NCBI RefSeq assembly: GCF_015234135.1
Contig: NZ_JADGIK010000008.1
Span: 1-64,000, forward strand
Direction of reading: 5' to 3'
Origin: Faecalibacter rhinopitheci
GTDB taxonomy: Bacteria; Bacteroidota; Bacteroidia; Flavobacteriales; Weeksellaceae
DNA length: 64,000 nucleotides
Of this stretch, positions 46,704 through 57,794 are shown in pieces. The position numbers were made by a program, and so were the translations under genes. Positions within the stretch are counted from its first letter, which is position 1. Each line of letters opens with the position of its first letter. The notes under the pieces are model-generated. The model was given only the letters and a program-made list of their open reading frames with translations. It searched no databases and was not told the DNA's origin.

Positions 46704-49700
46704 ATGAAACTAAATTTATGCTATAAATACTTATTTACAATCTTATTTTTGCTATTGCTCTCAGCTAGAGGATATGGGCAGGAAAATATTACTCCAATTA
46801 GAGATCAAGTTACAGGATTTCCTATTTGGACGGATAATCAAATTAGTGGAAGTACATATTTACAATTATTAAAAAATAATTCCTATACTATTACACCAAC
46901 CTTAGACCTGAGTCAATTTACTAATAAAACTTTAGATTTTAAATTTCGAACATATGGGGTGGCAACTGCTTCAGAAATTTTATTAACAATTTCTATTTCA
47001 GAAGATAATGGTAATACATGGAAAATTATAAGAACCCTATCACCAAGTAAAAATAATTTAAATTCAGCTCCTCAAATATTATTAAATCAATATTCAAATT
47101 CTAATAGTAAGATTAAATTTTCTGTAGGAGGAAATAATGATGATATAGGAGTAGGTATAGATGATATAAGTATTAGAGGGAATTTAATTACTTTTCAAGA
47201 AGCTCCAATCCTAACAACTCCCCAATTAGTTAGCGGAACTTATGGTGTATTGTTAACAAATTATACAGTACAAAATACAGGAGGTAGTGCAACTGGTTGG
47301 AGTGTAGATCATCTACCAAATGGGGTTGCTTTCACTAATGGAGTATTTAGCGGGACACCAATGTTTACAACACCATTTTCTACATCAGTAACAGCTAGTA
47401 ATAGTTTAGGTAGTTCTACGGCTTCAATTAATTTTAATATAGCTAAAGCAAAACAGACTTTTGGATTACCAACGATAACAAATAAATTCGTAGATGATGC
47501 GAACGTAACTTTACCTTCAAAAACAAAACACTCTACAAACAGTGCTTTAGATGCTAATGATATTACTTATACATCAAATAATCCATCTGTAGTCGCAATC
47601 GTAAATGGAAATCAATTGGATTTTTTAAGTGTAGGTTCAGCTGAAATAACTGCAACTTCTGCTAACACAAATTCTAATTATGATGATATAACATCAGCAA
47701 AATTTACAGTATCGGTAAAGAAAAGAACACAGACGATTTCAAATTTTAGTAATATCACTCAGACTTATGGAGGTACAATAGGTAACTTAGCTGCAACAAC
47801 AAATTCAAGTTTGCCACTATCGTATGAAATAGTATCTGGTCAACCAATAGATGTAATTAGTATTACAGGTAATCAAGTAACTATTTTAAATGTAGGATCT
47901 ACTAAAATTAGAGCTTTTAATAATGGTAATGATATTTATAGTCCGATAGAAAAAACTATAGATGTAAAAATAAACAAAGCGAATCAAACTTTATTAACTG
48001 ATATTTCAAATATTTCTGGATCATTAGGATTGGAACTAGATACAAATTTAGATTATACGAATCAAAATTTACCTTTAACAGTAGTTTCCGATAACGAAGA
48101 AGTTGCATTCTATAATGAGGGGAAAATATATTTGGTTGGAATTGGAACTACAACATTAAAAATTTCAAATAGTGGGAACAGAAATTATGAACCATATGAA
48201 AAAACAATTAATGTAAAAGTTTTAGATCCTGATTTAAATGAATGTATTAATGAGAATTTTGATGGAACAGATTCACCAAAATTAGAACAACAAGGATGGG
48301 AATTAAATTCTATAACATTTGGTGGACAAACATGCACTGGAAAAGGAGCAGTTTTTAATGGAAAAAATGATTATTTGAGGACACCCGTATTATTAAATCC
48401 TCAAGAAATAAGTTTTAATAAACGTAGAAGTGGTAGTACTACAGCATGGAAAATGATAGTTCAAATTAGAAAAGCAAATTCTAATACTGAGCAATGGAGT
48501 GATGTAAAAATAATTACTTCAATTAGCACTTCTTGTGAAGAGGAAATTATTGATTTAAAGAGCATTGTAGAAGACGGTGAGCTTTATTATATCAGGCTAA
48601 TAGATGATCGTAGTTCAGAAAATCACGAACGAACAATTGATAACCTAAAAATTATTTGTAAAGGAGAACAGATTGAATTAGTGAATGAACCTCCTGTTGT
48701 AAAACCAGCCTCAAAAGTTTCCGATAATCAATTCCAAGCAAATTGGGAAGAAGTTTCGAACAATAGTTATTTGTTAGATATCTTTTACAAAGAACTTGGG
48801 AACTATACTACTGATTTAATTTTTTCAGAATATGTTGAAGGGAGTAGTTTTAATAAAGCGCTAGAAATATATAACGGTACAGGTAATTCGATTAATTTAA
48901 GAGGGTATAAAATTAGTAAACAATCAAATGGTGTAGGTAATTTTACTAACACTTACTCATTACCCGAAAGAATATTAAACCATGGTGAAACCATATTATT
49001 AATTCATGGTAATGCAGGTGAATATTTATATAATTTAAGTACAAACCATAACTCTATTGTAGTTACCACACCAGTTAGTTTTAACGGTAATGATGCGATT
49101 ATTTTAACTAAAAATGGAGTAACAATAGATCAAGTTGGGTTTGAAGATCAAGTATCTACATGGGGAGAAAATAAAACGCTTAGAAGAAAATCAACAGCGA
49201 ATGCTAATCCCGAGTTTAGCATAGCGGAGTGGGACGAATATCCTATAGATACATTTGATGGATTAGGTCATCATTCTGTTATTGGGTTATCAAATGAGAG
49301 AAAAGTTTATGTAAAACAAGATGAAATTATATCTAAGGGTGTATTTAATCATGAAATTTCTACAGGAATTTCTAAAAATAGCGACTATTATTACGTTGTA
49401 CGAAGCCAATTAGGTGATCAAATTTCTGCTCCTTCTGAAGAAATGGATGTGAAAAGAACATATTTTGAAAATGGTTTTTGGAAATCTGATCGTGAACCTG
49501 GACATAAATATCATTCAGTTGTGTTAGAAGGTAATTTTGATGGATCATTAAAAGGTAAATCTATCACAATTGATAACGAAACAACCAATACGATTACTTC
49601 AGGGAATACATTCCATGCAGTCCATAGTTTTGATGTTTTATCGGGTGCAATTGTATTCGACGAAGGTGCTTATCTTTTACAGGATAATGATGCTTCGGTA

Positions 49701-51035
49701 AATTATGGAGAAGCTACATTCAAAAGAAATGCTACATTCTTCCGTTATGATTCAAAAGTTTGGTCTTCTCCAGTTAATGGTCAGAAAATAGTTAAAAGTT
49801 CAGCAACGGATCATACAGGTTTTATATTAAATCCATCAAAAATTTTTTCATATAACGAACCAACCCGTAATTGGTTAGAAGATACTGACGCTAATTTTAT
49901 GACTGCAAAAGCATATGCAATACAGTTAAACAAAGGATATCCTAATTATTCTGAAGGAGGAACTCAAGTTAATTTTGAGGGTTTATTTAAGGGAACTCCA
50001 CAGAACGGAGTATATACAGTTCCTGTGAAAATATCATCAGATGGCCGTGGAGATAATGGAGTAGGAAATCCGTATGGTTCGCCTATCGCTATGGAGAACT
50101 TTATGTCAGTTAATCATCATGTTAAAACCTTATATTTTTGGAACGAAGAAGCGCATTATGATTTTTCGATTAGTGGATATAATGCACAGACATGGAATGC
50201 ATATAATTTGACGGGTAATAATAATCAGACAAGTACAGAAAGTTCTTTTATAAATACAGGAGTAGGATTTATCACTCGAGTAACTACTGATGGAGATATT
50301 ATTTTTAATAATTCTATGAGAGAAGTTCCAAATACTAATTTAACTATAGAAAATCGTGTTAAATTAGAAAAAGATCGTTTTTGGCTAAGATTAACAGAGA
50401 ATGATAAAAAGTTAAACCAAATCCTAATTGGTTATATACCTGGAGCCACAAACGAAATTGACGATAAATATGACGCAAAAAATCTGTCAATGCAAGGTTC
50501 TTATATTTTATCAAATACACTAGGAAACAAGATGATTATAGAAGGTCGTCAATACCCTCTAGATAATAATGATAGTATTCCACTATTTTTTAAAGCTTCA
50601 GAAGCAGGTCAATTTACAATTGATTTAGCATTAAAAGAAGGTATTTTTAATGAAGAAAATATCTATTTAAGAGATAATTTAGAGAATAAAATAATCAATT
50701 TAACGGAGGATAACTCTTATTCATTCCATTCGGATAAAGGTGATTTTCCTGATCGATTTATGATACAATATAAGGAAAACCAAATTCTAAATGCTGTTGA
50801 TTTGGCGAGTGCTAATGGAATTACTATTTATCAAAACAGAACAATTTATCAAGTACAATCAAATGAATTGGTTAATGCTTATAAAGTATTAAACTTTAAT
50901 GGTGATATTATCCAAAAAGTTAAGGTGGGCGCTAAAAACCAATTTGATTTAATAGCTTTAAATTCAGGTGTATATTTTATTCAATTTTCAGTGCAAAGTG
51001 GAAAAGTTATAACTAAAAAAATGATTATCAAATGA
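46704..51035 (+). CDS. Large T9SS-secreted protein with Ig-like repeats and lamin-tail domain
   Basis: This 1443-residue protein has a signal peptide (about 1-26) and a type A T9SS sorting domain at about 1362-1443, ending GVYFIQFSVQSGKVITKKMI followed by IK. In between lie a jelly-roll-like part (about 30-175), Ig-like repeats of He_PIG/BIG type (about 180-510), another carbohydrate-binding-like module (about 515-655), and a lamin-tail domain (about 705-857, with LIFSEYVEGSSFNKALEIYN). Residues from about 960 onward resemble the C-terminal half of the 51872-54835 protein. It is surface-exposed or released; adhesion is only a guess. It overlaps the next gene by 4 bp. Confidence 0.88.
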   Translation: MKLNLCYKYLFTILFLLLLSARGYGQENITPIRDQVTGFPIWTDNQISGSTYLQLLKNNSYTITPTLDLSQFTNKTLDFKFRTYGVATASEILLTISISEDNGNTWKIIRTLSPSKNNLNSAPQILLNQYSNSNSKIKFSVGGNNDDIGVGIDDISIRGNLITFQEAPILTTPQLVSGTYGVLLTNYTVQNTGGSATGWSVDHLPNGVAFTNGVFSGTPMFTTPFSTSVTASNSLGSSTASINFNIAKAKQTFGLPTITNKFVDDANVTLPSKTKHSTNSALDANDITYTSNNPSVVAIVNGNQLDFLSVGSAEITATSANTNSNYDDITSAKFTVSVKKRTQTISNFSNITQTYGGTIGNLAATTNSSLPLSYEIVSGQPIDVISITGNQVTILNVGSTKIRAFNNGNDIYSPIEKTIDVKINKANQTLLTDISNISGSLGLELDTNLDYTNQNLPLTVVSDNEEVAFYNEGKIYLVGIGTTTLKISNSGNRNYEPYEKTINVKVLDPDLNECINENFDGTDSPKLEQQGWELNSITFGGQTCTGKGAVFNGKNDYLRTPVLLNPQEISFNKRRSGSTTAWKMIVQIRKANSNTEQWSDVKIITSISTSCEEEIIDLKSIVEDGELYYIRLIDDRSSENHERTIDNLKIICKGEQIELVNEPPVVKPASKVSDNQFQANWEEVSNNSYLLDIFYKELGNYTTDLIFSEYVEGSSFNKALEIYNGTGNSINLRGYKISKQSNGVGNFTNTYSLPERILNHGETILLIHGNAGEYLYNLSTNHNSIVVTTPVSFNGNDAIILTKNGVTIDQVGFEDQVSTWGENKTLRRKSTANANPEFSIAEWDEYPIDTFDGLGHHSVIGLSNERKVYVKQDEIISKGVFNHEISTGISKNSDYYYVVRSQLGDQISAPSEEMDVKRTYFENGFWKSDREPGHKYHSVVLEGNFDGSLKGKSITIDNETTNTITSGNTFHAVHSFDVLSGAIVFDEGAYLLQDNDASVNYGEATFKRNATFFRYDSKVWSSPVNGQKIVKSSATDHTGFILNPSKIFSYNEPTRNWLEDTDANFMTAKAYAIQLNKGYPNYSEGGTQVNFEGLFKGTPQNGVYTVPVKISSDGRGDNGVGNPYGSPIAMENFMSVNHHVKTLYFWNEEAHYDFSISGYNAQTWNAYNLTGNNNQTSTESSFINTGVGFITRVTTDGDIIFNNSMREVPNTNLTIENRVKLEKDRFWLRLTENDKKLNQILIGYIPGATNEIDDKYDAKNLSMQGSYILSNTLGNKMIIEGRQYPLDNNDSIPLFFKASEAGQFTIDLALKEGIFNEENIYLRDNLENKIINLTEDNSYSFHSDKGDFPDRFMIQYKENQILNAVDLASANGITIYQNRTIYQVQSNELVNAYKVLNFNGDIIQKVKVGAKNQFDLIALNSGVYFIQFSVQSGKVITKKMIIK

Positions 51036-51358
51036 GAAAATTATCAATTATAATAGGTTTTATTAGTGTATCTATTTTCGCTTCAGAACAGCCTTTTACA
51101 CGTGATAATCCTTATGATCAGCTAAGTAATATTGAGGATAAACAGATAAAAGGTGATAACGCAACAGAGGTTTATATTAATCAAAATGAAAAGGATGAAA
51201 GTATCTTCGATTATTTTGCAAATATAAGTGTAAAAAGCTTAGAGGATGATGACGATCCAGGAGATATTCCAGTAGAAGATGTTCCAATTGACTCTTATCA
51301 AATTGGCTTATTATTCATAGGATTATATTTTATAATCAGGAAAAAATATATATCATAA
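51032..51358 (+). CDS. Small membrane-anchored protein with PID-type C-terminal sorting signal
   Basis: The 108-residue protein has a signal peptide (MRKLSIIIGFISVSIFA), an acidic middle with DDDDPGDIPVEDVP, then the sequence PIDSY, a hydrophobic helix (QIGLLFIGLYFII) and a basic end RKKYIS. Motif, helix and basic tail is the layout of PEP-CTERM or LPXTG-like sorting signals. The start overlaps the stop of the T9SS cargo gene in an ATGA, so translation is coupled. A similar gene follows the second cargo gene. I recall a PID-CTERM family label in public annotation, not checked here. Confidence 0.78.
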   Translation: MRKLSIIIGFISVSIFASEQPFTRDNPYDQLSNIEDKQIKGDNATEVYINQNEKDESIFDYFANISVKSLEDDDDPGDIPVEDVPIDSYQIGLLFIGLYFIIRKKYIS

Positions 51359-51366
51359 TTTAAAAC

Positions 51367-51398
51367 AAAAAGGCTTCTTTCATAAGAAGCCTTTTTTA
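51367..51398 (+). terminator. Terminator of the first T9SS pair
   Basis: AAAAAGGCTTCTT and AAGAAGCCTTTTT form a 13-bp stem with a TCAT loop and T run. Confidence 0.9.
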
Positions 51399-51657
51399 GT
51401 TATATCGATTAAAAAATTATACTAGATAGTAATTGAAGCTGAATTTTCATTCGTCAATGCCTTTTTAGTAATGTATCCTTAGTTCTTTAAAATGATAATT
51501 AATATAAAGTACAGAAATATATTGTTAAAATAAGAAATAGTCTCTACAATTTTATATTTTAAAGATAATTAATCCTAACACTAGTATTGTGTGTATAACT
51601 AAAAAGGTTTATTATATTTTAAATATTTAAAACAGGTAAATATGCAATTTAATTTTA

Positions 51658-51694
51658 TTATAAATACTTATAAATGGTTATAAATACTTATAAA
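51658..51694 (+). repeat. Direct repeat of 17 bp, period 20
   Basis: TTATAAATACTTATAAA occurs at 51658-51674 and again at 51678-51694, separated by TGG. Each copy is itself partly palindromic. The pair lies about 100 bp before the promoter of the second cargo gene. Confidence 0.8.
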
Positions 51695-51789
51695 GTTACA
51701 TTTTTTATTAAATCCGGATATTAATTTTTATTGAATATAAATTATTTATCTGTTTAATAAGTACTTTAAGTATTTATGTTTTGTATTGA

Positions 51790-51821
51790 TTGTCAGGGTG
51801 TTATGTAATTTAATAGATTTG
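51790..51821 (+). promoter_or_regulatory. Predicted promoter of the second T9SS pair
   Basis: TTG at 51790-51792, 21 bases, and TAGATTTG at 51814-51821 match both elements. The leader to the ATG is about 46 nt. Confidence 0.6.
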
Positions 51822-51871
51822 TACACATTTTTATAGTGTAAAAAACTAAACTAAATCTATTTAAAAATTAT

Positions 51872-54835
51872 ATGCTTATGTCAAAGAATCTACAATTTTT
51901 TTCAGGCTATTTCAGTCTATTTTTTCTCCTTATAACAACTATTGTTTTTGGGCAGAATCAACTGATTAATATTTCACAAAATAATGTTTACTATAAACCC
52001 ATATCTAATCAAGAAATAAAATCAGCGAATTATATAATTGTTAATTCATCCGAAAATTTAGCTGTAGGTAATGTAATTACAACTAAGCTTCTTAATGTAG
52101 ATCCATTAAATACTGAAGCTGTTGTTAAAAGCACAAATAATTTAGGTTTAGGCTTTATTTCTACAGAGTTAGATAAGAATAGTATAAAGTGGTATTTTGA
52201 AAATAAATCTGGTAACCAATTTAGCATTTATAATGCAGCAAAGCAACAATATTTATATAATGATGTATATGATCTGTGGTTCCTTGGAACATTTTTAAAT
52301 TATGCGTTTAATAGTTCATTTACCAATTCCGATTCTTATAAATGGTTAGTTTCTATTAACAATATAAAAAGTAATGTAGATAGAGCTGATGTTTATATGA
52401 ATTTTAGTTCTAGTGTAATGTCTTTTGGAACTTCGTCAAACGTTATTTTATATAAGCAATTAACACTAGATAAATTTGATAATTTTGTTACATATAATGG
52501 TCAAAGTACAATATTTGATGAATTATCAGAATTGAATGGTCAAGTGACTTACTCAACTGATACTAGAGTTAGTGGTAATGTTGTAGCTAATTTTGCAGGT
52601 GTGCGTGGTAATAACGTAACCTTTACAGGTACTGGAGAAATTAAGCTTAAAGCGACGGTAAAACATCAATTTGCTGGTTCTACAGTAGCTCATATCCCAG
52701 ATTATACAAAAATTATTACAGTTAAAGTATATGATGATTATGCTTGTTTTAATGAAAAATTTGATACAGGTAATGAACAAGATAGTGGTGGTACCAATAA
52801 TGAGACTCCAGCTACTAGACCAATTGAAAACTTTCCTGTATGGGGAGGGAATGTACAGTTGTATAAATCTGGTGTACGGTTAGGTACAAGTACAAACCCT
52901 AAAGGTTATATTGTATCTAAAGAATTAACAAATATTTCAGGTACTGTTACTGTAGAAATAGATATTAGAAGAGAACCTGGAACTACGAATAGAAAAGTAA
53001 GATTTGGATTCGTTACATTAGGTAGAAATAATTCTCCTTCATATATAAGAACAAATTTACGAACTGATCAAAATGTTACAAGGAATGTAAATGACAAATT
53101 TGAAACTATATCTTACACTTTCACAAATGTACCCTCAAATTCTAGATTGATGATTGATAGTGATAGTAATGGGTATAGAATGTGGATTGATAATGTACGT
53201 ATCAATTGTAATTTATCTCCTCTTACAATCTGGGAAAATCAAAAATGGTCTAATGGTGAGCCAAGTATAAATAGAGATGCTGTTATTCGTGAAGTAATTG
53301 ATGAAAATGTAATTGCAAGAAATTTAACTTTTGAGAATGTTGATAAAATGTTTGTTAATGCAGGTAATTTTATACGTATAGGAAAAAGTTTAAAATTAAA
53401 TGCTACAGAATTAGAATTCGATAAAAGTGCATATTTATTTTTAGACGAAAATGCTACAATTGATGGTCCTATTATTTACAATGCGAACCATGAGTATTAT
53501 AAATACGATACCAGAATGTTTTCTTCTCCAGTGCAAAATCAGAAAGTAAAAGGAGAAGATGCTTTTTCAAATTCAAAAGCTAATATATATGTGTTTAAGA
53601 CATATATGAAAGATGGCATAACAAACAAAGAATGGGCAAACTATCAAAATCAAGATTTTTTAAAAGGTATAGGTGTAGGGATACAAAGAGCTGAGGGTAA
53701 TTTGTATTATAGTAATAAGCCTGCAATAGAACCTAGTATATTCAAAGGTGAATTTAAAGGAATTCCATATAACGATAATTTTATTATAGATCTTAATAAT
53801 CAAGTTCAAACAGGTACTACAAGTACAGTTATTGCAGGAGGTGCTTATAGTTTAGGAAATCCATATACAGCACCAATTAATATTACAAGATTTTTGTCCG
53901 ATAACAAAAATACTATAGAATCTCTTGAACTATGGAAAAATCATGTTCCATATGATTATGCTATAAATGATTATATTACTTCTGATTTTTGGATAAAATG
54001 TTCACTCGTAGGGTGTAATTCTGGTCTTAATGAAGATAAGATAGATGTAGGTAAAGGTTTTATAGTGAATTTATTATCTAATAATCCTTCTAACAATATA
54101 ACTTTTCAACATAGCCAGAAAGCGTATGAATTAACAGGAGTAAGCCAAAATAATAAAATTCAAGAAAATAAATCTCGTTATATTTTAAGTTTGAATCATA
54201 ACGGAGTTCAGATGAATTCTACCTTAATTGGCTATATGGATGGTTCAACAAATGATTTTGACCAAAGTTATGACGTTGTTTCAGATATAAATCTTGCAAA
54301 TACATTACATGTTAATAACAATAAAAAGTATTTATCTATTGATGCAAGAAGTTATCCACTAGATATTAGTGATAGCGTTCAATTAAGTATAAATGCGGAT
54401 AAAGAAGGTGTATATGTGTTGAAATTAAATGAAGTTGATGGTGATTTTTCAAACGGTCAAGAAATTTATTTAATAGATAATGCTACTAATGAAGTAATTA
54501 ATTTATCAGAAAAATTAGAATACAATTTTGAAACTAAAGCAGGTATTATAGATAATAGATTTACTATTCTTTATAAAAATACTTTAAGAATAAATGATAT
54601 ATCGAATAACGATACATTTAAAGTTTATAAAGTTGGAGATGAACAATATGTTACCTCATCAAAAAATATTTCAGGATTTAAAGTTTATACACTTAATGGA
54701 ATTTTAGTAGATGAAGTTGTAGGAATTAATAGTAACAATATTAAGTTAAAAAAATCTTATAGAAATTCTCTGATGATTTATAATTTCTATTTGTTAGATG
54801 GCTCTATGATAACTAAAAAAATATTGTATAAATAA
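51872..54835 (+). CDS. Large T9SS-secreted protein, paralogue of the 46704 gene product
   Basis: The 987-residue protein has a signal peptide (about 1-29; ATG at 51878 is an alternative start) and a T9SS sorting domain at about 903-987 ending GSMITKKILYK. The N-terminal 280 residues look beta-rich. A jelly-roll-like module follows (about 300-450). The C-terminal half shares GNPY and SSPV motifs, an LIGY segment with D-x-Y-D, a YPLD segment, and similar order with the 1443-residue protein, so the two are paralogues there. It overlaps the next gene by 1 bp (TAATG). Confidence 0.87.
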   Translation: MLMSKNLQFFSGYFSLFFLLITTIVFGQNQLINISQNNVYYKPISNQEIKSANYIIVNSSENLAVGNVITTKLLNVDPLNTEAVVKSTNNLGLGFISTELDKNSIKWYFENKSGNQFSIYNAAKQQYLYNDVYDLWFLGTFLNYAFNSSFTNSDSYKWLVSINNIKSNVDRADVYMNFSSSVMSFGTSSNVILYKQLTLDKFDNFVTYNGQSTIFDELSELNGQVTYSTDTRVSGNVVANFAGVRGNNVTFTGTGEIKLKATVKHQFAGSTVAHIPDYTKIITVKVYDDYACFNEKFDTGNEQDSGGTNNETPATRPIENFPVWGGNVQLYKSGVRLGTSTNPKGYIVSKELTNISGTVTVEIDIRREPGTTNRKVRFGFVTLGRNNSPSYIRTNLRTDQNVTRNVNDKFETISYTFTNVPSNSRLMIDSDSNGYRMWIDNVRINCNLSPLTIWENQKWSNGEPSINRDAVIREVIDENVIARNLTFENVDKMFVNAGNFIRIGKSLKLNATELEFDKSAYLFLDENATIDGPIIYNANHEYYKYDTRMFSSPVQNQKVKGEDAFSNSKANIYVFKTYMKDGITNKEWANYQNQDFLKGIGVGIQRAEGNLYYSNKPAIEPSIFKGEFKGIPYNDNFIIDLNNQVQTGTTSTVIAGGAYSLGNPYTAPINITRFLSDNKNTIESLELWKNHVPYDYAINDYITSDFWIKCSLVGCNSGLNEDKIDVGKGFIVNLLSNNPSNNITFQHSQKAYELTGVSQNNKIQENKSRYILSLNHNGVQMNSTLIGYMDGSTNDFDQSYDVVSDINLANTLHVNNNKKYLSIDARSYPLDISDSVQLSINADKEGVYVLKLNEVDGDFSNGQEIYLIDNATNEVINLSEKLEYNFETKAGIIDNRFTILYKNTLRINDISNNDTFKVYKVGDEQYVTSSKNISGFKVYTLNGILVDEVVGINSNNIKLKKSYRNSLMIYNFYLLDGSMITKKILYK

Positions 54836-55095
54836 TGAGAAATTTATTATATATATCGCTTTTTCTGATAAATTTTTCTGATTTGAAAGCTTCAGATATC
54901 AACTATTTTGATTCTAGACAAGAGATACAAGAGCAAAACGAATATGATTATGAAACTTCTAATCAGACAGAAAAGACTCCTGGATTTCCTGTCCCTGCAC
55001 CAATCAACGACTACCTACCAATTTTAATTATTGCGGCAGTTGGATTAGGATTCTTTTACAGAAAAGAAATTAATCAAACAATAAAATCAAACTAA
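54835..55095 (+). CDS. Small membrane-anchored protein with PIN-type C-terminal sorting signal
   Basis: The 86-residue protein has a signal peptide (about 1-19), an acidic, Gln/Glu-rich middle, and then VPAPINDYLP, a hydrophobic helix (ILIIAAVGLGFFY) and a basic segment RKEINQTIKSN. Its end matches the pattern of the 51032 gene product (PI, D or N, x, Y, helix, basic tail). The start codon overlaps the stop of the second cargo gene by one base. The pairing of cargo and small protein is thus repeated. Confidence 0.78.
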   Translation: MRNLLYISLFLINFSDLKASDINYFDSRQEIQEQNEYDYETSNQTEKTPGFPVPAPINDYLPILIIAAVGLGFFYRKEINQTIKSN

Positions 55096-55096
55096 A

Positions 55097-55123
55097 ATAA
55101 AAAGCCTCCATTTGGAGGCTTTT
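55097..55123. terminator. Bidirectional terminator after the second T9SS pair
   Basis: AAAAGCCTCC and GGAGGCTTTT form a strong stem with an ATTT loop, just before the stop of the convergent gene. Confidence 0.88.
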
Positions 55124-56174
55124 ATTGTTTTATATAATTTTTGTATTGTATAATATTGTAATTAATCGCTTGTTCCAAAATTTCTCCCATAGAATAACAA
55201 TTATCAAACGAATCGTTTCTATATAATTTTTTAAAACCAGTTCTCAACTGTATTACATGTTCTGACGGAGCAATTTTATCAATTTTAATCACCTTTAAAA
55301 GATCTTTATAGCGCTTATGGCTGTCAGTTACTCTTTTTACAATAACAGATCTTACTTCTTTTCTATATTGTTCTATAGAATTAGATTTTAAACGATTCAT
55401 CACTAGATCTACGAAAATTCGATTCTCTTTAAAATACTGAGGACGATAAATTTTTAAATTACCTTCATACGATTGTTGGTCAAAATCAATAGGTCTTATT
55501 CTGTAAAATACTTGATCAAAATCGTGCATAGGTATTACCACAAAATTATAAGATCTCATATCTCCTAAAAGTCCAATAAAACAACGCTCATTAAATTTTA
55601 CAAACTCTTTAGCAATCTGATTTTTTTCTAAATCAGTACATTGTTCTAAATATTTTTGAATAAAAATATCTCCCGGAATTCCGAGTATATGTTCCTCTAT
55701 AAGTGTATCTCCATCAACTAAAAAATTAATACGGTGTGGAGATAATATTTCCTCCATTTCTAAGCCATAAACCCGAGAAGCATCTGCTTTTTTAATATAA
55801 TAATTCGTATAATTATCATTCAAGATATTACGTACGCGTATACGAAAGGGCTTCGAATTTCCAAAAGTGCAATAATCTATAGAGTCAACTGCTAAGAAAG
55901 GTAAAGAATCCTCATCTCCATCAGAATGTAGTAATGTGTATATCCTATTCAAACTGCTTTCTATTTCCCGATGTTCACTCTCAGAATAATAGACACCTAG
56001 CCAATGTGTATCATTTCCTTCCTTATCTTCCAACGTCACATAACCTGAGAATCTTAATAAATCATCATATTGAAGAGAAGTTTTAGTATTGCGATTATAT
56101 TTCTCTAGGTATTGTTTAAGTTCTGGAATAATGGGATAAATTGGTTTTCGAAATTCAATTTTAATATCTTTCAT
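55122..56174 (-). CDS. Conserved protein of unknown function
   Basis: From the ATG at 56174 the protein has 350 residues (30 more codons are open upstream but cysteine-rich and unlikely). It is soluble. The middle and C-terminal parts, with FVKFNERCFIGLLGDMRSYN then IRPIDFDQQSYEG, resemble kinase-like folds (a D-x-R-x-x-N loop and an IDFD segment), but no glycine loop is clear. It is divergent from the GNAT-nitrilase fusion gene 112 bp away, an arrangement that may be conserved in flavobacteria. Confidence 0.72.
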   Translation of the reverse strand: MKDIKIEFRKPIYPIIPELKQYLEKYNRNTKTSLQYDDLLRFSGYVTLEDKEGNDTHWLGVYYSESEHREIESSLNRIYTLLHSDGDEDSLPFLAVDSIDYCTFGNSKPFRIRVRNILNDNYTNYYIKKADASRVYGLEMEEILSPHRINFLVDGDTLIEEHILGIPGDIFIQKYLEQCTDLEKNQIAKEFVKFNERCFIGLLGDMRSYNFVVIPMHDFDQVFYRIRPIDFDQQSYEGNLKIYRPQYFKENRIFVDLVMNRLKSNSIEQYRKEVRSVIVKRVTDSHKRYKDLLKVIKIDKIAPSEHVIQLRTGFKKLYRNDSFDNCYSMGEILEQAINYNIIQYKNYIKQ

Positions 56175-56285
56175 AAACAAAATTCTTATACGAAGATAAG
56201 TACATAAAATTTTACGATCTAATAAAATGTACTTGGTGCAATGTTTGCAATAAATGATATACATCTAATATAGAAATTATTTTTT

Positions 56286-57794
56286 ATGAATATTGAAGTT
56301 CGAAATCTAACGTTGGAAGATTATAATGATCTTACGTTATCCACTATAGAAGCCTACGAAAATAAATTGGGTACTTGGTCCAAAGAGGAGATTACAGAGC
56401 TATTATCAATATTTCCGGAAGGTCAGTTTTGTATTGCGGTTAATAACAAGGTTGTTGCATCTGCTTTAAGTATTATTGTAAATTCTAAGAAAACCAATCT
56501 ACATTCTAATTTTGATACGATTACTTCTGATGGTAAATTCTTGAAACACGATCCACATGGAGATATTTTATATGGGATTGAGGTATTCGTACATCCAAGC
56601 CATAGAAAACTACGCTTAGGACGTAGGTTGTATGATGCTAGAAAGCAGTTGTGTGAAGAAATGAATTTAAAATCAATCGTGGCAGGAGGTCGTATTCCAA
56701 ATTATTACCATTATTCTAAAGAAATGTCTCCGCGAGAATATATAGAAAAAGTAAAGCGAAAAGAAATTTTCGATTCTACTTTAGCTTTTCAATTGTCAAA
56801 TGATTTTAATGTAAAAAAGATTCTAAAAAATTATCTGAAAGATGATAAAGAATCGATGGAATATGCTACATTATTAGAATGGAATAATATCTATTATGAA
56901 CCTGACTTGTATTCTAATTCTCCAACCAAAAGAAATATTCGTCTAGGTTTAGTACAATGGCAAATGCGATTATTTAATGGGTTGCAAGATTTTTATGATC
57001 AAGTTGAGTTTTTTGTTCAGACAGTAAGTGAGTATGGTTCAGATTTTATTGTATTTCCAGAATTTTTCAATGCCCCATTAATGAGTCCTTTTAATCATCT
57101 AAAAGAGATAGAAGCGATGCAACAATTAGCATTGATGACAGATGAAATCGTAAAGAAAATACAAGAATTTGCCATTACATATAACGTGAATATTATAGCA
57201 GGTTCTATGCCTCATTTTGTGGACGAAAAATTATACAATACAAGCTTTTTATGTCATCGTTCAGGGAAATTAGACTCTTTTAGTAAGATTCATATTACAC
57301 CAAATGAGTTTAAATATTATGCCATGCAAGGTGGTGATGAGATAAAAGTTTTTGATACAGATTGTGGGAAAGTAGGTCTATTAATATGCTATGATGTAGA
57401 ATTTCCGGAAGTAAGCCGAATTTTAGCAGATCAAGGAATGCAAATACTCTTTGTGCCTTTTATGACGGATACACAGAATGGCTATACAAGGGTAAGAAGT
57501 TGTGCGCAAGCAAGAGCTATAGAAAACGAATGCTATGTAGCCATTGCAGGTTCTGTAGGTAACTTACCGCGAGTTAATAATATGGATATTCAGTACTCAC
57601 AGTCTGCAGTGTTTACACCTTCGGATTTTTCGTTTCCTAATAATGGAGTAAAATCTGAAGCAACCACAAATACAGAAATGGTATTAATATCAGATGTAGA
57701 CCTTTATTTATTAAAAGAGTTACACGAGTATGGAACAGTAAAAACCATGAAAGATAGAAGAAGAGACTTATATAATGTGAATAAAATAAAATAA
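56286..57794 (+). CDS. GNAT acetyltransferase fused to a carbon-nitrogen hydrolase
   Basis: The 502-residue protein joins an N-terminal GNAT domain (about 1-170; acetyl-CoA loop RKLRLGRRLYDARKQLC) to a nitrilase-fold domain (about 215-495). The catalytic triad is Glu259 in VFPEFF, Lys334 in FSKIHITP and Cys368 in LLICYDVEFPE. It could hydrolyse an amide and acetylate an amine of one pathway. The substrates are unknown. The gene is divergent from the unknown 55122-56174 gene. Confidence 0.9.
   Translation: MNIEVRNLTLEDYNDLTLSTIEAYENKLGTWSKEEITELLSIFPEGQFCIAVNNKVVASALSIIVNSKKTNLHSNFDTITSDGKFLKHDPHGDILYGIEVFVHPSHRKLRLGRRLYDARKQLCEEMNLKSIVAGGRIPNYYHYSKEMSPREYIEKVKRKEIFDSTLAFQLSNDFNVKKILKNYLKDDKESMEYATLLEWNNIYYEPDLYSNSPTKRNIRLGLVQWQMRLFNGLQDFYDQVEFFVQTVSEYGSDFIVFPEFFNAPLMSPFNHLKEIEAMQQLALMTDEIVKKIQEFAITYNVNIIAGSMPHFVDEKLYNTSFLCHRSGKLDSFSKIHITPNEFKYYAMQGGDEIKVFDTDCGKVGLLICYDVEFPEVSRILADQGMQILFVPFMTDTQNGYTRVRSCAQARAIENECYVAIAGSVGNLPRVNNMDIQYSQSAVFTPSDFSFPNNGVKSEATTNTEMVLISDVDLYLLKELHEYGTVKTMKDRRRDLYNVNKIK

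Follow-up and report, generated by a model that had tools for sequence, protein, structure and literature searches.

Two large genes, each followed directly by a small gene, lie in tandem on the forward strand of a 64,000-nucleotide stretch of Faecalibacter rhinopitheci DNA (contig NZ_JADGIK010000008.1), here termed the window. The genes and features of this locus are:

46704-51035, plus strand: cargo 1 gene, encoding a 1443-aa T9SS type A cargo with a putative signal peptide
aa 702-813 of cargo 1, plus strand: lamin-tail domain (domain-model match)
49437-51032, plus strand: RemA/RemZ-like C-terminal module of cargo 1 (profile A5)
50829-51032 (aa 1376-1443), plus strand: TIGR04183 match of cargo 1 (T9SS type A sorting domain, 30.6 bits)
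51032-51035, plus strand: ATGA, in which the stop of cargo 1 overlaps the start of small gene 1 (junction CAAATGAGAAA)
51032-51358, plus strand: small gene 1, 108 aa, with a putative signal peptide, an acidic middle, PIDSY, a helix and a basic tail
51284-51298, plus strand: PIDSY codons of small gene 1 (motif search)
51872-54835, plus strand: cargo 2 gene, encoding a putatively secreted 987-aa protein with a RemA/RemZ-like module and a T9SS tail by homology only
53219-54832, plus strand: RemA/RemZ-like C-terminal module of cargo 2 (profile A5)
54833-54837, plus strand: TAATG, in which the stop of cargo 2 overlaps the start of small gene 2 (junction ATAAATAATGAG)
54835-55095, plus strand: small gene 2, 86 aa, with a putative signal peptide, PINDY, a helix and a basic tail
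55000-55014, plus strand: PINDY codons of small gene 2 (motif search)
55122-56264, minus strand: gene of 380 aa with no Pfam match, kept at the same position in a congener

The open reading frame listing and the junction sequences bear out the four genes and both overlaps (ATGA and TAATG) described in a sequence-only reading of the window, and the C-terminal halves of the two large proteins are related as that reading had noticed (27% over 543 aa, E 3e-48, in a pairwise comparison). The same reading had assigned a T9SS type A C terminus to both cargos. This stands for cargo 1, which scored 30.6 bits against TIGR04183 (cut-off 23 bits), but not, by model, for cargo 2, which matched no HMM, TIGR04183 at its 23-bit cut-off included, and whose putative T9SS tail is recognized only through its homology with that of cargo 1. 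Both small proteins have hydrophobic N termini with basic residues at the start, as judged by eye and with a hydropathy screen rather than a signal-peptide predictor, and both end in the motif, a single helix, and a cluster of basic residues. A third pair was found by motif search in the same genome (G000:C12, approximately 164.9-167.2 kb), where a 705-aa cargo (TIGR04183, 36.5 bits) is accompanied by a 79-aa small protein with PIDDY.

The whole locus is present in a congener (L277) between the same flanks, with a GAPDH gene to the left and a minus-strand gene of approximately 350 aa to the right, and with one additional cargo between the two pairs. Small proteins 1 and 2 have orthologs there with 40% and 44% identity (E 2e-25 and 3e-22, respectively). 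Because the locus recurs in a congener with orthologous small proteins, a chance locus is ruled out. It might still be argued that the small genes are chance open frames without function, since their products are short, of low complexity and without a database family; this is exceedingly improbable given the orthologs at the same place in the congener and the approximately 100 homologs that share both tail and position, and such conservation rules chance frames out. Farther along the window (56286-57794, plus strand), a 502-aa protein is encoded in which an acetyltransferase domain is fused to a carbon-nitrogen hydrolase domain.

Scans of Pfam, NCBIfam, and PHROG returned no family for the small proteins. 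A first tail profile was built from the three tails of the window genome and searched in 60 genomes of the same family, in most of which tails were found and then read in context. Alignment of 68 tails gave the consensus P-[IVL]-[DN]-x-[Y/F/W]-x3-L, followed by a hydrophobic helix and terminal basic residues. Across these aligned tails, the P (68/68) and the L eight residues after it are invariant, the second position is I, V or L, the third is D or N in 65 of 68, and Y, F or W occupies the fifth in 60 of 68. The 68-tail profile was then run on a wider set of 296 genomes of the order, with weak cases searched a second time. It matches small protein 1 at E 1e-7 and small protein 2 at E 1e-13; among solved structures, only generic transmembrane helices were returned by the tail profile. 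Membership in PID-CTERM (NF046080) was considered and is ruled out by score, as this model (threshold 26 bits) gave no match to the small proteins even at E<=10, found nothing in the window genome, and gave no match above its cut-off in the 35 family genomes in which it was tried. In the literature searched, no paper describing PID-CTERM or the present tail variant was found. Judged by its anatomy, the tail is a putative sorting signal of a kind already known from PEP-CTERM and PID-CTERM, of which the PI(D/N)xY variant appears to be new.

By tail alone, 97 distinct small proteins of 67-131 aa were gathered in the family. A same-strand gene lies within 350 bp upstream of 95 of the 97 small genes, at a median gap of 10 bp, with 87 of these 95 within 60 bp and 9 touching or overlapping, and the upstream gene ends match TIGR04183 at E<=0.001 in 91 of 95 cases. 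The window genome has approximately 33 T9SS tails in 2.9 Mb, so chance alone would give just 1-2% of genes a T9SS neighbor. Since the tails were collected blind to their neighbors, the adjacency is an independent result. The earlier expectation that such genes would sit directly behind T9SS genes, rather than mostly away from them, thus holds in this family. This adjacency is seen in most of the family's genera and at two kinds of loci, namely adhesin arrays and a cargo gene followed by a PIDMY gene and a thioredoxin-like gene, and it also occurs in other families (L197, L211, L213, L216, L224). Within the Flavobacterium-containing family, only 5 of 29 tail genes have a T9SS cargo in front of them and most stand alone; the ends of RemA-type arrays inspected in that family had no small gene. 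Genome sizes and gene content suggest that this family (f3) is Flavobacteriaceae and that of the window genome Weeksellaceae. The pairing is a rule in the family of the window genome and partial elsewhere, and the link to the exosortase XrtF, detailed below, is the broader rule.

Two locus types encountered in this survey may be recorded. In most genera of the family, a T9SS cargo, a PI(D)xY gene, and a thioredoxin/AhpC-like protein form a triad (L044/L013; G000:C12, approximately 164.9-168.7 kb), in which the last protein carries DUF4369 and starts approximately 60 bp downstream of the small gene. Loci of Flavobacterium type (L192, L194-L196, L201-L203, L206, L212, L214) encode stand-alone small secreted proteins with a Pro-rich middle and a PI(D/N)xx tail and with no adjoining cargo, and these are candidate solitary XrtF substrates.

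A C-terminal module of about 530 residues is common to both window cargos, which match its profile (A5) and are among the sequences from which that profile was built. The profile also matches the adhesins RemZ (8gl8_D, E 9e-142) and RemA (8gl6_D, E 3e-132) of Flavobacterium johnsoniae. Single-sequence AlphaFold modeling of the module reached a pLDDT of 30. A search of genome contigs with a two-row alignment returned one named locus, which is distant and lacks a small gene. Cargos with the module form tandem arrays of eight (G048), five (G026), and at least four (G008) genes, and in several genera an array has one small gene behind its last cargo, with polysaccharide genes coming next. That a single small gene can accompany as many as eight cargos speaks for a common accessory and not for one subunit to each cargo, and arrays with a single small gene rule out a strict 1:1 pair. 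The proposal that cargo and small protein are made in a fixed ratio by coupled translation is not supported as a general rule: although the overlaps in the window are real, most pairs lie about 10 bp apart, tandem arrays of 4-8 cargos end in a single small gene, and only 5 of 29 small genes of the Flavobacterium-containing family follow a T9SS cargo. At three loci (L272, L274, L276), the array and its one small gene are followed by CapD-type, sugar transferase (Bac_transf), PglD, and DegT aminotransferase genes; a DegT gene also emerged from an adhesion screen in F. johnsoniae.

Exosortases process proteins with tails of this kind at the inner membrane. Of the 60 family genomes, 54 encode the exosortase XrtF (TIGR04128), and the tail was found in 50 of these 54 and in none of the six that lack XrtF (Fisher 4e-6), so that the tail behaves as the exosortase-type sorting signal that had been suspected from its appearance. 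The four XrtF-encoding genomes without a tail are G005 (79% complete), G007 (83% complete), G033, and G047; in the six genomes without XrtF, the few profile matches start after the motif or fall in unrelated proteins. Only one genus of the family (g5) has lost XrtF while retaining T9SS cargos: one of its genomes (G035) encodes XrtF together with a tail gene and a single module-bearing adhesin, and two others (G004 and G053) lack XrtF, the tail, and the RemA-type module while keeping 45 and 48 T9SS cargo tails. Of the comparisons made, this contrast inside one genus is the strongest. Such genomes, rich in T9SS tails and without XrtF, rule out that the tail is explained by the presence of T9SS alone.

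Outside the family, where genomes were scored as tail-positive at E<=1e-4, XrtF is encoded in 28 of 29 tail-positive genomes versus 77 of 247 (31%) overall, with Fisher values of 3e-15 by genome and 8e-4 by genus, the genomes here, like those of the family, being related and the counts therefore not independent events. The sole exception (G083) has a tail of P-I-D-G-G (NF046080) type on a 6-kb contig, with neither XrtF nor XrtX found. The module follows a similar distribution outside the family, with XrtF in 60 of 63 genomes that have it versus 17 of 184 that do not, and the three genomes without XrtF that encode module-like cargos (G128, G146, G255) have weaker matches (E 1e-40 to 1e-46). At one locus (L204), XrtF is followed by a membrane protein of 149 aa that is similar to the XrtF partner (TIGR04127-like) and then by a small gene with PIDDY. 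XrtF of the window genome has Cys in EGC, Arg in NIFR, and His in HDYLFP, and Cys, Arg, and His are the catalytic residues of exosortases; its gene overlaps that of its TIGR04127 partner. The exosortase XrtX (NF046081, >=170 bits) was not found in the window genome, where the XrtX model matched the XrtF gene alone (94.5 bits, versus 169 bits on the XrtF model). Across genomes, then, the presence of the tail follows its cognate exosortase XrtF. This provides strong indirect support for the putative processing of the small proteins by XrtF.

Deletion of xrtF in F. johnsoniae abolishes zorbs and strongly reduces biofilm. In that organism, xrtF and its partner gene came from the same adhesion screen as porU, porV, porZ, and sprA, and their mutants lost adhesion and zorbs as the porU, porV, porZ, and sprA mutants did; among nine mutants, colony spreading was lost only in that of sprA (PMC10936215). 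This likeness of xrtF and T9SS mutants fits an XrtF-processed product that acts together with type A adhesins. In 2025, the targets of XrtF were reported as ‘not yet known’ (PMC12188702), and the tail described here is very probably the long-sought XrtF target signal.

Taken together, the anatomy, conservation, adjacency, and co-occurrence suggest, with a probability of roughly 0.6, that the small proteins are putative XrtF substrates acting with T9SS adhesins of the RemA/RemZ type. The small protein would leave the cytoplasm via its Sec signal peptide and would be held in the inner membrane by its C-terminal helix, where XrtF would recognize P-I-(D/N)-x-Y, cut beside the motif, and pass the freed end to an acceptor. 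The processed protein would then act together with the RemA/RemZ-type adhesins, either at the cell surface or within the envelope; in the family of the window genome, the genes of these adhesins precede the small gene. The partnership with adhesins is the more novel part of this proposal and less certain than the tail variant. More tentatively, XrtF, its PI(D/N)xY mini-substrates and the RemA/RemZ-type adhesins might constitute one adhesion system, in which the processed small protein could serve as a display anchor or assembly factor.

Two other explanations merit consideration. The small protein could be a target of XrtF that functions together with exopolysaccharide, in which case the location of its gene after adhesin genes would reflect co-regulation of surface genes and not physical partnership. 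Exosortases are classically tied to exopolysaccharide (PMC1569441), sugar-transferase, PglD, DegT, and CapD-type genes come after the small gene in several genera, and the small genes of Flavobacterium mostly stand apart from cargos. This explanation is nevertheless unlikely in view of the adjacency in most genera of the family, at two kinds of loci and in other families, and of the RemA-type module itself tracking XrtF. A little less likely again is that the tail is an uncut inner-membrane anchor and the small protein a tethered periplasmic chaperone or pilot that takes the new adhesin to the T9SS translocon, the link to XrtF being one of shared ancestry only. A mere anchor would need no invariant P-I-D/N-x-aromatic motif, and the tail is absent from genomes without XrtF that keep 45-48 T9SS cargo tails, present without an adjoining cargo in Flavobacterium, and encoded beside XrtF itself at L204, even if the strict place behind a T9SS cargo in the family, the near-coupled translation, and the acidic or Pro/Gly-rich low-complexity middle of the small protein would all suit a chaperone.

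If XrtF substrates do act with these adhesins, inner- and outer-membrane sorting machines would act on one surface complex, and two protein-export systems thought to be separate would be joined. A link between an exosortase and T9SS type A adhesins would also explain the likeness of xrtF mutants to T9SS attachment mutants. The tail provides a defined candidate class of XrtF targets that lends itself to mutagenesis of the motif and to tagging of the short genes.

Several known systems resemble the one proposed. RemA and RemZ of F. johnsoniae (8gl6, 8gl8; PMC10994853) are T9SS type A substrates, like cargo 1 and putatively cargo 2, and they belong to the same family as the window cargos over the C-terminal ~530 residues, the part compared; no small partner was found in the passages of PMC10994853 consulted. 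The PEP-CTERM/EpsH system (PMC1569441) is alike in its motif, helix and basic tail, in the association of the tail with the presence of an exosortase, and, in some genomes, in exopolysaccharide genes nearby, whereas the window type differs in its motif, in its very small carriers, and in having T9SS adhesin genes as neighbors. PID-CTERM (NF046080) shares a short secreted protein, a P-I-D motif, a helix, and a basic tail, but its motif is P-I-D-G-G, whereas in the window type P-I-(D/N) is followed by x-Y and the accompanying exosortase is XrtF. The pairing of NF046080 with XrtX (NF046081), a relative of XrtF, is read from model names and numbering alone. In other families of Flavobacteriales, genes of NF046080 type also stand behind T9SS cargos (L211, L216, L219, L225), and a link to T9SS may hold for the XrtX/PID-CTERM type as well. 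Small genes with P-I-D-G-G or a similar motif were seen directly behind T9SS-like cargos at these four loci and at L292.
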